From Stieleria maiorica (GTDB lineage: Bacteria; Planctomycetota; Planctomycetia; Pirellulales; Pirellulaceae): 64,000 nucleotides of DNA. The notes under the pieces were generated by a model that was given only the letters and a program-made list of their open reading frames with translations, searched no databases and was not told where the DNA came from. Below, piece after piece: positions 58,789 through 64,000 of the stretch (its first letter is position 1; the number at the start of each line of letters is the position of its first letter). The position numbers and the translations under genes were made by a program. Where the stretch lies: positions 2,267,409 through 2,331,408 of the forward strand of contig NZ_CP036264.1 of the NCBI RefSeq assembly GCF_008035925.1. The letters are read 5' to 3'.

Positions 58789-59787
58789 AATTCAATGGCG
58801 ATTCCCACTGCTGCTTCGGTAAACTTGATTTCCTGACAGAGCCAGGGCTGTACTTCAAACACAGCTCCCATTGGCCCCCGCCCTCCCCAACCGGATTTCG
58901 ACATGCGTCATCGATTCACCCTCGTGGTCTTGATCGGACTGTTTACCACGCTGTCCGCCGCCCCGACCCTCCGTTGTGTCGCCGGAAAACCGAACCTGTT
59001 GATCGTTACGGTCGACGACATGAGTTGCGATTCGGTCGGCGCGTTCGGCTGCGAGCTTGAGGGCACGACGCCGAACATCGACGCGCTGGCCGCGGCGGGT
59101 TTGCGCTACCATCACGCGCATGTGCAAGTCGGTAACTGTTACCCCTCACGCAACGTGATGTTCTCCGGACGCTACCCGCACAACACCGGGGTCGAGGGGT
59201 TTTATCAAGTCAAAGATCCCGACTATCCGCACATGGTTGACCTGATGAAACAGGGCGGGTACTTCGTCGCCATTCGCGGCAAGGTCTCTCATTCGACTCC
59301 CTATCAACCCTATGGCTGGGATGCGGACCTGACGATTCTGGACGGCGAGAAACAGGACATGAAGAATGCAGAGTCGTATTACAAATCGACTCGCCGTGGG
59401 ATCGCATTGGCGAAGCAGGCCGGCAAACCGTTCTGCATCAACATCAACATTTCTGATCCGCACAAGCCGTTTTACGCGATGGGCAAGCAGGGGGCGATTG
59501 TCCAGGACGAGAACGTCCCGTCACGGATCTTCACCGCCGACGAGGTCCCGATCCCCGGGTTCCTGTTTGATCATCCCGATGTTCGTTTGGAATTGGCGCA
59601 CTACTATTCGTCGGTACGTCGCGCGGACGATTGTTTCGCGGCCGTCATGAAAGCGCTGCGTGAGTCGGGGCAAGACGAACAAACCGTCGTGATCTTCCTG
59701 TCCGATCACGGGATGCCGTTGCCGTTTGCAAAAACGGCACTTTGGAATCACAGCACGCGGACCCCGTGGATCGTCCGCTGGCCCGGT

Positions 59788-59796
59788 GTCACAGCC
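59788..59796. repeat. Target-site duplication, left copy
   Basis: GTCACAGCC directly before the left end of the element; the same nine bases follow the right end at 61356-61364. Confidence 0.95.
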
Positions 59797-61355
59797 CTCG
59801 TTGTTATACACAAATTTTTGATGATGTATTGATTCGCGAAATCGCTCAAACTGTTGCTCACAGGGAGTTCAGGTGCACGACAGGTAGCAACGGAGTGTTT
59901 GCGATGGTGAGCCAATGGGTGATTGACGAATTAGAAACGGTGGATCTTGGCGACAAGAGACGAAATGAACGACTTGCCGAAGTGCTCTCCGCCATGGCTG
60001 GTTTGCCGAGCAAGAGCATTCCTGCTGCAGTCGGCGCAGGACACAACGAAACAACGGCAGCCTACCGACTTTTTGATAACGATGCGATCTGCTTTGAGGA
60101 CATTTTAGCGCCCCATATAGATGCCTGCTATAAGCGTCTTGCTGAGCAAGAAGTTGTCATCTTGGCTCACGATACGACGGAACTGGATTTGACGAAACCT
60201 AACACGCAAGTAGAAGGGGCCGGTCCGCTAGATGGCAGTTCACGCTACGGCGAGTTGCTTCACCCGCTGATGGCGTTCACTCCCACCGGCACGCCCTTAG
60301 GAACCGTTGCAGCGGAACTTTGGACTCGCGAGGAAGGTCCGTCAAAAGCCGATGATCGAAAGAAAGTGCCGATTGAAGAGAAGGAGTCTCTGCGATGGCT
60401 TGAAAACCACCGCGAAGCACAGTTAATCGCTAGCGAGCACCCCGAAACGCAAGTTGTCTGCGTGGCTGACAGCGAAGCGGACATCTTTGAAGTCATCGAG
60501 TGTAATTCCGATTCTCCAAAGAACTTTTGGTGGATTATTCGCAGTTGCTATGACCGTTCGATCGTTAATCAGCACGGTCGGCCATCAGGAAATCTGCATG
60601 AAAAACTCGCCGCGAGCAAAGTACGCTACACCAAAGCGATAACGATTCGTTCGCACCAACCCAAGTTAGCCTGTGACAAACGAGCACGCAATCAACCGCG
60701 AGAGGCACGCCAATGCGAACTCGAGGTGCGTGCAACGACGCTGACACTGAAGAACCCCTATCGGCCCGATCGACACCTACGGCCCACGAAAGTCAACGCG
60801 ATTTGGGCTCACGAGATCGATCCGCCTGAAGGGGATACGCCTATCAGTTGGCTGTTGCTGACCAATATGCCGATTTCGAACAAGGAAGAGATTGAGCTGG
60901 TGTTGTCTTACTACTGCATTCGCTGGTTGATCGAAGTATTCTTCCGAACTCTCAAATCAGGCACTCGCATCGAAGCAAAGCGGTTTGAAAAGATCGAACG
61001 ATTCGAGCGTTGTCTCGCTGTTTCGATGATCTTGGCGTGGCGAACGTTCTACAGCGTGCGGATCGGTCGCGAATGTCCAGACGTCAGCTGTGAAGCAGTA
61101 TTCGTAGCCGACGAATGGCAGCCGGTATACAAGATCGTCACCGGGGAAGATCCGCCAAAGAAACCACCGACGTTGAAGGAGATCGTCCGCATGATCGCTC
61201 GGCTTGGCGGCTACATCGACCGACCACGACATGACGAGCCTGGCACCGATACGGTCATGCGCGGCATGGAACGACTCTACGACATCAGTAGTTGTTGGCG
61301 AAGCTTTGGTCCAAATGCAACCAGATCAGGGGAATGAATTGTGTATAACAACGAG
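59797..61355 (+). mobile_element. IS4-family, IS50-group insertion sequence (1,559 bp)
   Basis: The ends are perfect 17-base inverted repeats (59797-59813 and 61339-61355) carrying TTATACACAA, the core of the Tn5/IS50 ends. A 9-bp target duplication, as made by IS50-type elements, flanks it. It encodes one transposase. The element is visibly less GC-rich than its surroundings, consistent with arrival from outside. It looks intact and so may be active. Confidence 0.96.
59904..61337 (+). CDS. IS50/Tn5-like transposase
   Basis: This 477-aa protein is close to the 476 aa of Tn5 transposase. ATG 59904 is chosen because the frame further upstream crosses the element end. The N-terminus has the Tn5-type DNA-binding region (LGDKRRNERLAEVLSAM, HNETTAAYRLFDND). 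The catalytic triad fits Asp90 (LAHDTTELD), Asp189 (CVADSEADIFE) and Glu344. The IS4 signature Y-x2-R-x3-E-x6-K is exact at Tyr337, Arg340, Glu344 and Lys351. It cuts and pastes the element through its 17-base ends. No frameshift or stop is seen. Confidence 0.96.
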   Translation: MVSQWVIDELETVDLGDKRRNERLAEVLSAMAGLPSKSIPAAVGAGHNETTAAYRLFDNDAICFEDILAPHIDACYKRLAEQEVVILAHDTTELDLTKPNTQVEGAGPLDGSSRYGELLHPLMAFTPTGTPLGTVAAELWTREEGPSKADDRKKVPIEEKESLRWLENHREAQLIASEHPETQVVCVADSEADIFEVIECNSDSPKNFWWIIRSCYDRSIVNQHGRPSGNLHEKLAASKVRYTKAITIRSHQPKLACDKRARNQPREARQCELEVRATTLTLKNPYRPDRHLRPTKVNAIWAHEIDPPEGDTPISWLLLTNMPISNKEEIELVLSYYCIRWLIEVFFRTLKSGTRIEAKRFEKIERFERCLAVSMILAWRTFYSVRIGRECPDVSCEAVFVADEWQPVYKIVTGEDPPKKPPTLKEIVRMIARLGGYIDRPRHDEPGTDTVMRGMERLYDISSCWRSFGPNATRSGE

Positions 61356-61364
61356 GTCACAGCC
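61356..61364. repeat. Target-site duplication, right copy
   Basis: GTCACAGCC directly after the right end of the element, matching 59788-59796. Confidence 0.95.
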
Positions 61365-62283
61365 CCCGGCGCGATCGACACGAACCACATGATTTCCGCC
61401 GTCGATCTGTTGCCGACCCTGCTGGACATCGCCGGAATCGATCATCCCGACGGTTTTGACGGTCGGTCTTTTTTGCCGACACTGCGCGGCGAGCAACAAT
61501 CCGGTCGCGACATGGTCTTCAAGGTCTACAACGAAAACTCTGGCGGAAACCGCAGCCCGATGCGTAGCGTCCAATCCAAACGCTTCGGTTACCTTTTCAA
61601 TCCCTGGTCCGACGGTAAACGTGTCTTCCGGACCGCAACGACCGGGACGCTGTCCTATCGAGCGATGGTCAAACTGGCTCCGACCGATCCGCAAATCGCC
61701 GCTCGGTTGGAATTGTTTCAGCACGGCGTTCCCGAAGAGTTTTATGATTACGAAAACGACCCCGATGCGCTCGTCAATTTGATCGATGACCCCAAGTACG
61801 CCGACGACATTGCCACGCACCGCGCGGCGATGCGACGATTCATGGTCGATTCGGGCGACCACGCCCTTGCCGCACTGGAGCATCGCAGCGACAAACAGTT
61901 CGTCAGCGACTATGTCGACAAAGTGCAAGCCGAAGCGGACGCGCGGCGGGCGAAACGGCGCGGTAACAATGCCAAAACCAAGCCGAATCCCAAACTGTTT
62001 CAGTGGCAGGTCCCTGCACAGGCAATACCGGGCAGATCGTTCACCGTCTCCATCGCTCACCGGTTACCCGAATCTTTGGGGGAACAGAACTTTCACGTCA
62101 CGATCAAAGACGCCGGCGGGAAACGGATCGAGCGAATCGTTCGCTCTGCATCGGGACAGGGCAAACTGGAGGTGACGTTCCAGATCCCCGAGCGGTTGTC
62201 CGGGAAAAAAATCTCTGCCGCGGCGTTCGTCGGTGAGGAGTTTTCCAACAACCTGATGTATCGAACGGTCAGCGACATCAAGA

Positions 62284-63417
62284 TTAACGGTCCAGCAAAT
62301 CCCCAATGAATTGATTCGCGTGTCGCGAGTTGACCGCGCGAGCCAGTTTCCAAATGGTACTGACTGTCCCGATGTGCTGGACCAAGCTGGGGCATGGGAA
62401 CAGAATGGGAATCTTATCGGAATTGGCGATCTGGCCGATCACCACGTCGATTCGGGACAGCCCCTTTCCGTCGGGCAACCGGCGGTGCTGAGAAACGAGC
62501 GGCGAAGTCAGGATCCGCCGCAGTGCCTCGGGGGAAAAGACGAACGCCACCGCTCCCCAGACCCAGCGGTCGGGAAACCGGTGCCACCCTGCGGAGGCTT
62601 GCGTGTAGGCTTTGCTGCAGTACAGCGACGCGATCCATGGCCCATCATCCGGCCAGAGCACGCTTTCCAAGTAGTCTCGCATCGCCGGAGCGCCCAGGAA
62701 CAACGCGTCGTCTTGGATCATCATGTAGGCATCCGCGTGGGGATCCCGCATGAACAACTCGCCGAGTGACAACATGTAGTTGGGAAAGGCTCCAACGGCC
62801 GGACTGCGGCGGCAGGCGACGAGCCGCTCAAGGGACTGCGGAACATCCACCTTACCGTCGATAAACAACCGTGGGTCGCTCCATCCGGATGTTAGGATCG
62901 AACCGACACTGCGCTCCAACGTCGGCAGTCGGCGTGCAGCCGTGGTGACACCCACGGCCCAGGTCGCGACGTTTTGATTCGAACCCGGGGGTGGCGTCTC
63001 CGGTCGTGGAAGAAGATCAGCGATGCTATCGACGGTGACCGCCCGAAGGTGATCGTACGATTTGCGTCCCCAATCAACGCAATCATCTTCGTCGGGGGCC
63101 ACGGCCGGCAATGACCGTTCCGCCCATCGATTCAGTTTCTTGGCCGATTCCAGATTGCATCCCGCGACTCCGTTTTCATCGATCACTTGTTCGGTCAACG
63201 CGAACAACAGCGACGCGACGATCGGGTTCAAGTCACGCTGTGACGGTGGGTAAGATCCACAGCATGCCCGACAGGCCGCCGCTGAAACCTGCAATCCCGT
63301 GTGGTTATTAATCCCCGAGATGCTTTTCAATAATCTGCATACGGCGATTTCGCCCGTGTCGGACGAATCGACCACTTCGCGATGCCGACAGGTTTCGGGC
63401 GCTCGACATTCCATCAC
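62284..63417 (-). CDS. Glycosyltransferase-like protein with N-terminal four-cysteine module
   Basis: This 377-aa protein is soluble. Residues 1-60 hold a Cys-rich module (Cys10, Cys27, Cys49, Cys52; GEIAVCRLL, QVSAAACRACCGS) that recurs in the divergent gene at 63769. Residues about 150-377 look like a GT-A type glycosyltransferase: WAVGVTTAARRLPTLERSVGS, RLFIDG, GAFPNYMLSLGELFM, MMIQDDALF (acidic, where DxD would bind the metal-sugar nucleotide) and PSLVQHIGTVST. The family assignment is from these patterns. Its ATG overlaps the stop of the small gene upstream by four bases. Its 3' end overlaps the sulfatase 3' end by 26 bases. The acceptor is unknown. Confidence 0.78.
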   Translation of the reverse strand: MMECRAPETCRHREVVDSSDTGEIAVCRLLKSISGINNHTGLQVSAAACRACCGSYPPSQRDLNPIVASLLFALTEQVIDENGVAGCNLESAKKLNRWAERSLPAVAPDEDDCVDWGRKSYDHLRAVTVDSIADLLPRPETPPPGSNQNVATWAVGVTTAARRLPTLERSVGSILTSGWSDPRLFIDGKVDVPQSLERLVACRRSPAVGAFPNYMLSLGELFMRDPHADAYMMIQDDALFLGAPAMRDYLESVLWPDDGPWIASLYCSKAYTQASAGWHRFPDRWVWGAVAFVFSPEALRRILTSPLVSQHRRLPDGKGLSRIDVVIGQIANSDKIPILFPCPSLVQHIGTVSTIWKLARAVNSRHANQFIGDLLDR

Positions 63418-63647
63418 TCCGCCGCGGCGACGCAGGTCGTCGCCCGCAATTGACCAACGAACTCGCCCGCCACCGACGGCGTCGGCCCCACCGTTGCACC
63501 GTCAACCGCACAATTCTTTTTGATCTGCCACTCGCTGCCGTCAAATCGCCAAAGCGTATAACCGAAACCCTCAGGGCCGCTCGAATGCGGTGGCGCGGAC
63601 GAATTCTCGTTTCGGACCGGGCGGACAATCGCTGTTTGCATCATCAT
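63414..63647 (-). CDS. Small unknown protein (77 aa) coupled to the glycosyltransferase
   Basis: I do not recognise the family. An AAGGAA site precedes a run of three ATG codons at 63647. The chain has a disordered start, an aromatic segment (YTLWRFDGSEWQIKKNCAV) and a Gly/Pro/Thr/Val-rich end with a second Cys (QLRATTC). There is no signal peptide. The stop overlaps the start of the glycosyltransferase-like gene, which supports a real, co-translated gene. It could be a substrate or small partner of that enzyme, which is inference. Confidence 0.6.
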   Translation of the reverse strand: MMMQTAIVRPVRNENSSAPPHSSGPEGFGYTLWRFDGSEWQIKKNCAVDGATVGPTPSVAGEFVGQLRATTCVAAAE

Positions 63648-63768
63648 TTGTTCCTTGCGCTGAAATCACGCTTAATCGATGGCCATGGCTACGCCCCCTG
63701 CCACTAGCATAGGGCATCTGATACCTGCCCATCAAACACGCAGAAATCTTTTTTTCAAGACTCTCCCT

Positions 63769-64000
63769 ATGAATTCCGGAAACCTGAATTGCCCGTTCCG
63801 CATCCATCCACGCCGTCAAGGGAACGGCGAGATCGCGACGTGTGGGTTGGTTCAACAGTTATTGCAGACCGAATCGAACGGTGGGACGGATGATGCGTGT
63901 CAGGTGTCGCGCGACGCTTGCGAGGCTTGCTCGGGATCCACTCCGGTCGCCAGCAGCTTTGTCAACGGAGTCTTTCCGTCGATCCTGAATGAAGCCTGCA
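63769..64000 (+). CDS. Partial protein with the same four-cysteine N-terminal module
   Basis: The frame starts at ATG 63769 and is open to the window edge (77 codons seen). The translated start shows Cys8, Cys25, Cys51 and Cys54 with IHPRR, GEIATCGLV and QVSRDACEACSGS. The same order, the same 17-residue step between the first two cysteines and the same final CxxC occur in the glycosyltransferase-like protein at 62284. Four such cysteines could bind zinc. The rest of the gene lies outside, so its enzymatic part is unknown. It is divergent from the small gene, with 121 bases between starts. Confidence 0.72.
   Translation, partial: MNSGNLNCPFRIHPRRQGNGEIATCGLVQQLLQTESNGGTDDACQVSRDACEACSGSTPVASSFVNGVFPSILNEAC

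Follow-up and report, generated by a model that had tools for sequence, protein, structure and literature searches.

A cassette of a kinase-STAND-FGE protein, a small protein and module-tagged glycosyltransferases in Stieleria maiorica and its relatives

At the end of a 64,000-nucleotide stretch of the Stieleria maiorica genome (the window; positions 2267409-2331408 of a 9.9-Mb single-contig genome), two divergent genes begin with the same pattern of four cysteines, and a small gene, here called s, lies between them. An earlier note, made from the letters of the window alone, had proposed a shared module and a possible new system. The locus raises the question of whether the pattern represents a real domain, and what kind of system could join two equally tagged enzymes and a small partner. 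The sequence past position 64000 was read too. The genes were found to belong to a cassette of three parts, defined by its families and their physical linkage: a Pkinase-nSTAND1-FGE protein (kinase K), the small protein s, and one or two glycosyltransferases tagged with the module. The locus looks like an undescribed signal-controlled sugar-attachment system.

The four-cysteine module and its enzymes

The cysteine pattern of the two proteins turned out to be exact and can be written as C-x16-C-x21/25-C-x2-C. The first gene (62284..63417, minus strand) encodes a transferase of 377 amino acids (aa) with a QDD motif and a GTG start. Its module was placed at 63193..63399 by the alignments, and C10 is followed by C27, 17 positions on, by 21 residues and by C49-x-x-C52. 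The second gene encodes a double-GT2 protein and lies with its first part in the window (63769..64000, plus strand; the whole gene is L002 4769-6577). A profile match placed its module at 63781..63999, with C8, C25, 25 residues and then C-E-A-C (C51, C54). Its product has 632 aa from the first ATG and 602 aa from position 63769. The words GEIA, QVS and AC-x-AC-x-GS, which had been read as common to both proteins, were likewise verified, the last of them as AC-x-AC-[CS]-GS.

A search of 60 relatives with the first transferase yielded matches in 12 genomes, and the module was present in 10 of these (in G040 just as an open stretch of 71 aa), whereas the matches in G021 and G030 were confined to the transferase domain. 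All four cysteines were invariant in a first alignment of 21 modules, were the sole invariant columns among 43 chosen rows from Planctomycetota and Verrucomicrobiota, and occurred in every one of the 59 distinct module stretches (alignment, E up to 1e-6). Homology between the modules of the two enzyme kinds was tested with a profile of 40 distinct modules from QDD-motif proteins, each less than 55% identical to any double-GT2 module. This profile recovered all 13 distinct double-GT2 modules with E from 1.9e-14 to 4.5e-9, the window's own with 9.8e-13, while the best of 5000 shuffled decoys reached E 1.6. The module is a real, unnamed domain that is common to both transferase kinds and more than a chance likeness.

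That the module matches no named domain, as the earlier note had supposed, was borne out by searches of Pfam, NCBIfam and PDB. The first transferase matched no Pfam and no NCBIfam family up to E 10. Comparison of 43 modules with Pfam at E up to 1 gave six families with one member each (best E 0.11), none of them credible, and the best match among PDB sequences, at E 0.79, was not credible either. A CCCH finger matched one of 20 full-length module proteins (E 0.027). A known zinc domain was ruled out as the identity of the module, with no credible match in Pfam, NCBIfam or PDB. The two outcomes that the earlier note had named as speaking against its proposal, homologues without conserved cysteines and a match to a known zinc domain, thus did not appear. 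None of the 48 module open reading frames (ORFs) at the named loci had a 19-residue stretch above the hydrophobicity cut-off, so that the module proteins are probably cytosolic. In this compartment four invariant cysteines would more likely hold a metal than form disulfides, and judging from its sequence the module probably serves as a structural metal site. By regular expression, seven of the 48 module proteins (L076, L077, L087, L090, L092, L093, L095) and the module-less relative L047 were found to contain a second region rich in Cys and His (C-x-[YHF]-[LR]-G ... C-x-H-P-x-H ... C-x2-C-x-D).

The earlier reading of the first gene as a glycosyltransferase held, but the cut gene had to be reassigned: it also encodes a glycosyltransferase (PF00535, 76.8 bits with a cut-off of 23.3, two GT2 stretches), so that both tagged genes are transferases. 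For the first transferase, an AlphaFold2 model was built from 20 sequences (predicted local distance difference test score, pLDDT, 83.7; predicted template modelling score, pTM, 0.70), and the best Foldseek matches in PDB were POMGNT1 (E 2.4e-8) and COLGALT1 (E 8.3e-7). The QDD motif was invariant across a 20-row alignment of the family, and by its modelled structure the protein is a GT-A-fold glycosyltransferase with an acidic QDD motif. Within the 48 module ORFs, QDD was found in 36, a DxDD-S motif in seven and neither in five, of which four had Pfam group-1 transferase domains and the fifth was a 296-aa piece. A Pfam scan of ten module proteins revealed an additional methyltransferase domain in L081 and no family in L092 and L075. 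The same tag is therefore found on several kinds of transferase, namely the QDD type, double GT2 and GT4. An origin from phages or plasmids was considered and rejected, as tblastn with the first transferase found nothing in the phage or plasmid collection; a comparison with PHROGs yielded only a weak C-terminal glucosyltransferase match (E 0.0024).

Linkage with the small gene s and kinase K

Past position 64000 the locus continues with the gene of kinase K (L002 6493-11337, minus strand, outside the window), which is convergent with the double-GT2 gene and overlaps its end. K was not visible in the earlier note and proved to be the most constant partner of the module. Its 1614-aa product matched PF00069 at the N-terminus (3e-48), nSTAND1 (9e-17) and FGE-sulfatase (4e-13). 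The 77-aa gene s (63414..63647, minus strand) had been said to overlap the start of the first transferase gene, and a four-base overlap (GTGA) between its end and the GTG start was verified, which suggests translational coupling. With an alternative ATG of the transferase gene, one codon further in, the overlap would be TGATG. A divergent intergenic region of 121 bp (63648..63768) separates the starts of s and the GT2 gene and presumably contains the promoters of both.

The linkage was determined at 43 named loci, 31 with the module and 12 controls with a related transferase domain but no module. A kinase K with an FGE end was whole at 24 of the 31 module loci, cut by a contig edge at three (L072, L086, L087) and absent from four (L065, L079, L082, L094). 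The module genes of L079 and L094 begin near a contig edge, another contig of the L065 genome (L123) holds a kinase homologue, and L082 is a plain miss. Three of the 24 whole proteins had no detected nSTAND domain (L077, L081, L089), and the kinase of L077 is 3.5 kb away. The gene s was present at 21 of the 31 module loci. In contrast, none of the 12 control loci had K or s, and one of them (L097) holds a 320-aa kinase frame without the FGE end; seven of the control contig pieces are shorter than 11 kb, so that the contrast is somewhat favoured. Fisher tests against the controls gave 1e-7 for K with 27 of 31, 3e-6 for K with 24 of 31, and 6e-5 for s, values that apply to loci that are not independent and to many control contigs that are shorter. 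The 20 other K loci that were fetched had neither s nor the module (0 of 20); they include a 5.3-kb contig with the kinase alone (L122) and the separated kinase L123, whose s and module genes are on another contig.

The same association was seen with whole genomes. Among the 60 relatives, K homologues were present in 26, that is in 10 of 10 module genomes versus 16 of 50 others; when the window's genome was left out, nine of nine module genomes had one (p 1.6e-4). Credible s matches were obtained by phmmer in eight of the 60 relatives, all of them module genomes, and the profile added a ninth (G020). Matches in G151, G317, G426 and G435 were discarded as chance (E 3.9e-4 to 8.9e-4, with stops inside the matched stretch), and so was a match in G052. 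In a phylum sample of 392 genomes, including the window's own, the module was found in four and a credible s in four, with three shared (hypergeometric 1.6e-6); without the own genome two were shared of three and three (1.2e-4), with kinship ignored in both values. G083 had the module only and G378 s only. The co-occurrence with short genes like s, for which the earlier note had proposed a test, was thus seen at 21 of the 31 named module loci and in three of the four module genomes of this sample.

The cassette was found in both Planctomycetota and Verrucomicrobiota, where its sequences have diverged and its gene order has changed. At 12 loci s directly follows the kinase, with -283 to 309 bases from the kinase stop to the open s frame (4 in two loci). 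A GT2 gene that is convergent with the kinase lies between kinase and s in the window and in L064, L066, L067 and L069. In three genomes the cassette was split over two sites and all three parts were kept, as K plus s and two module genes together in G003, and as K plus one module gene and s plus another in G006 and G009.

The protein s represents a second unnamed domain family; W, P and G positions were conserved in its alignments, and scans of Pfam and NCBIfam gave no model. A membrane segment was scored in seven of 31 distinct s frames, but not in the window's s. A 26-row alignment was built from which L081, L089 (two), L091, L042 and the third L062 copy were omitted and to which one L145 copy was added. 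Near the C-terminus, column 63 held Cys in 14 rows, Ser in 10, and Gly and Lys in one each; no other column came close, and the runner-up among Cys/Ser-rich columns was a mixed small-residue column (0.65). On the kinase tree, at least three changes between Cys and Ser were required over 16 loci. In G378, three s domains are part of a protein of 526 aa (L107 9146-10723) that also contains long repeats of Ser/Pro and Thr/Gly/Pro, and a further one lies in a 431-aa Thr/Gly-rich protein (L145 970-2265). Both mucin-like proteins precede a GT2-like gene, assigned by Pfam for the first and by eye, from a similar sequence, for the second. Where the profile found no s, L075 had a subthreshold s, and L085, L090, L092 and L093 had different short ORFs, or nothing that could be clearly identified, in the gap between kinase and module gene; at L079, L082, L084, L086 and L094 there was no s within the sequence stretch that was examined. 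In this gap, the short ORFs that stand in for s or are divergent from it were, as judged by eye, Cys-rich in L075 and L090 and had hydrophobic stretches in L092 and L093.

The kinase frames near module genes, characterized with kinase, nSTAND and FGE profiles over the 43 named loci, have 1069-1830 aa. The 28 open cassette-kinase frames contained an HRD-type motif in 26 cases, DFG in 28 and a P-loop pattern in 23, and 20 of them had a hydrophobic segment above 1.8, which the window's K lacks. The latter was the sole full match of its kind in its genome, among 106 Pkinase matches (some of them pieces of one protein). The presence of K from kinase abundance alone was rejected, because 106 matches in 9.9 Mb lead to an expectation of about 0.18 per 17 kb. 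A single ancestral clade of cassette kinases was also dropped as unsupported, since they clustered weakly on the tree. At least three of the 20 other K loci (L111, L125, L129) have a module-less glycosyltransferase within two called genes downstream of the kinase-nSTAND-FGE gene. Overall, K appears to be a receptor of a general type that has several partners, and the s-module set seems to occur seldom without it.

Next to the cassette, at 58903-62309 of the window, a transposase-like gene (59742-61337) interrupts a sulfatase-like gene; both were assigned by eye from the sequence. The transposase-like gene is bounded by the inverted repeats CCTCGTTGTTATACACAA and TTGTGTATAACAACGAGG and by the short direct repeat GTCACAGCCC.

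A possible mechanism and its rivals

A signal-controlled glycosylation with s as the carrier, either acceptor or scaffold, was favoured over its rivals, tentatively and as somewhat short of probable. For this system we infer sensing, kinase control, docking, an acceptor and a metal. The kinase-STAND protein would sense a ligand via its C-type-lectin-like FGE domain and would control the tagged, probably cytosolic transferases, which would assemble a glycan on s or a target recruited by it. The acceptor atom might belong to a Cys or Ser close to the C-terminal end of s, and the four-Cys module, probably holding a structural metal, would dock each transferase onto s or the kinase. This proposal builds on the linkage, with K at 24 (plus three cut) and s at 21 of 31 module loci versus none of the 12 controls, and on the best PDB fold matches, POMGNT1 and COLGALT1, being protein O-glycosyltransferases. 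The idea of a protein acceptor derives from column 63 of s and from the s domains in the mucin-like proteins of G378 beside transferase genes. This column swaps Cys and Ser and takes no Ala or Thr, which suggests a nucleophile with something attached; a sugar would fit both residues, whereas phosphate from a Ser/Thr kinase would not.

Several observations weigh against this explanation. The location of s is mixed, given the predicted membrane anchors in seven of 31 frames, and the profile misses s at 10 of the 31 module loci. The Cys/Ser column has two exceptions in 26 rows, and six of 31 distinct s hits were left unaligned, three of them without a readable end and three (L091, L042, the third L062 copy) without a Cys/Ser in register, so that the position could be structural. 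The Foldseek matches of the first transferase include nucleotidyltransferases and others, with TM-scores near 0.4. K homologues were found in 16 relatives without a module hit. One of them, in G005 (L110 6707-11464), is 78% identical to the window's K and has the same nitrilase neighbour; the lack of s and of module genes there is probably due to natural loss. K thus has work without s and module. On the kinase tree, the cassette label changed 11 times compared with 15.0 in shuffles, and 12 of 500 shuffles were as low.

Ranked second, and judged unlikely, is an immune or conflict system, in which the STAND-FGE kinase would detect an invader and release the tagged transferases, which as effectors would be toxic or induce dormancy, with s as adaptor. 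PMC8195603 counts STAND NTPase-FGS proteins whose N-terminal domain is an S/T kinase among counter-invader systems, glycosyltransferases are listed as effectors of vWA systems in PMC7159879, and one unchanging tag on different enzymes is reminiscent of the principle of effector-associated domains. Three module proteins also had subthreshold GT4-conflict matches (best E 2.6e-5, 23.8 bits, cut-off 26). However, no kinase frame at these loci was found to carry the module, so that the shared adaptor is missing. Wherever a domain or motif was recognised in a tagged enzyme, it was that of a glycosyltransferase, in L081 fused to a methyltransferase domain, and this is a better fit to biosynthesis than to a variety of toxins. 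PADLOC matches of K (best 25/36) lay within the kinase domain among the matches listed, and s and both transferases had none. Near relatives retained the nitrilase gene that adjoins K (L002, L035, L064), and the FGE end did not appear hypervariable between close relatives: in L002 versus L064, two FGE-match blocks of 100 columns were 79 and 91% identical, like the rest, and the short tail past FGE 12%, with no search made for a reverse transcriptase.

Less likely still, and ranked third, is a surface-polysaccharide set under kinase control, with a lipid- or sugar-linked acceptor and s as scaffold or regulator only. It would agree with the variety of the transferases (GT-A type, GT2, GT4 and a methyltransferase fusion), which at times come as two in series, and with the predicted membrane anchor of s at some loci. 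A flippase, a polymerase and an initiating transferase were not noticed in the neighbour lists, which were not searched systematically for them, and a protein acceptor is favoured instead by the mucin-like proteins with s domains and by the Cys/Ser position. It would also be conceivable, as the loci are phylogenetically related and K occurs alone as well, that the genes have no joint function and were merely co-inherited from common ancestors. This is very improbable in view of a set that spans two phyla with divergent sequences and changed order, of parts that all remain even when the cassette is divided over two sites, and of the zero counts at the 12 module-less transferase loci and the 20 other K loci.

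In its boldest form, the signal-controlled glycosylation would be a new receptor-controlled class of protein glycosylation in bacteria of the Planctomycetes-Verrucomicrobia-Chlamydiae group, a rather doubtful idea as a whole. A kinase-STAND-lectin receptor would switch on cytosolic transferases, the shared metal-bound module would dock them to a dedicated 50-residue carrier domain, and one Cys or Ser would be glycosylated; where mucin-like surface proteins contain s domains, the cell surface would be decorated in the same way. Two domain families and one transferase family without a Pfam or NCBIfam model are regularly coupled to a kinase-STAND-FGE protein, which gives one of the many planctomycete receptor-type kinases a concrete, testable output. 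The proposed system would add signal-controlled glycosylation to known bacterial signalling.

Comparison with known systems

Literature searches for the combination found no title or abstract start that names the module, s or the cassette, within a coverage that mostly excludes subscription journals. According to PMC8195603 and PMC7159879, conflict systems of the NTPase-FGS kinds have been reported from planctomycetes. The cassette resembles them in having kinase, nSTAND1 and FGE (FGS) domains in one protein, including the N-terminal effector-type S/T kinase domain (PF00069 in K), and in its variable nearby genes. In contrast, these systems share an adaptor domain (effector-associated domain, EAD) between NTPase and effectors, and no K frame carries the module or an s domain. 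Their FGS is diversified by diversity-generating retroelements, whereas the cassette FGE showed no sign of hypervariation in the comparison of L002 with L064, and the passages of both papers that were consulted do not mention module-tagged glycosyltransferases or the s family. As the shared adaptor is absent, the cassette was not filed as a member of the NTPase-FGS systems, although it may function in a similar way. The phylum does have protein O-glycosylation, as the S-layer protein of an anammox planctomycete is reported to be heavily O-glycosylated (PMC5088730).

The GT-A-fold protein O-glycosyltransferases POMGNT1, COLGALT1 and GalNAc-T2 share the fold with the first transferase, which has a QDD motif. 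The latter differs from them in that it has no detectable sequence family and an unrelated N-terminal module, and in that it is bacterial and probably cytosolic. In glycocin-type S- or O-glycosylation, a small precursor peptide with an acceptor Cys or Ser is encoded beside a GT2 gene, together with a leader peptide and a dedicated peptidase/ABC exporter. A leader peptide and a peptidase/ABC exporter were not noticed in the neighbour lists of the cassette, which were not searched systematically for them. The cassette is similar to glycocin-type pairs in that a small protein with a candidate acceptor Cys or Ser adjoins a gene of the GT2 family, and to such a pair it adds a kinase-STAND receptor.
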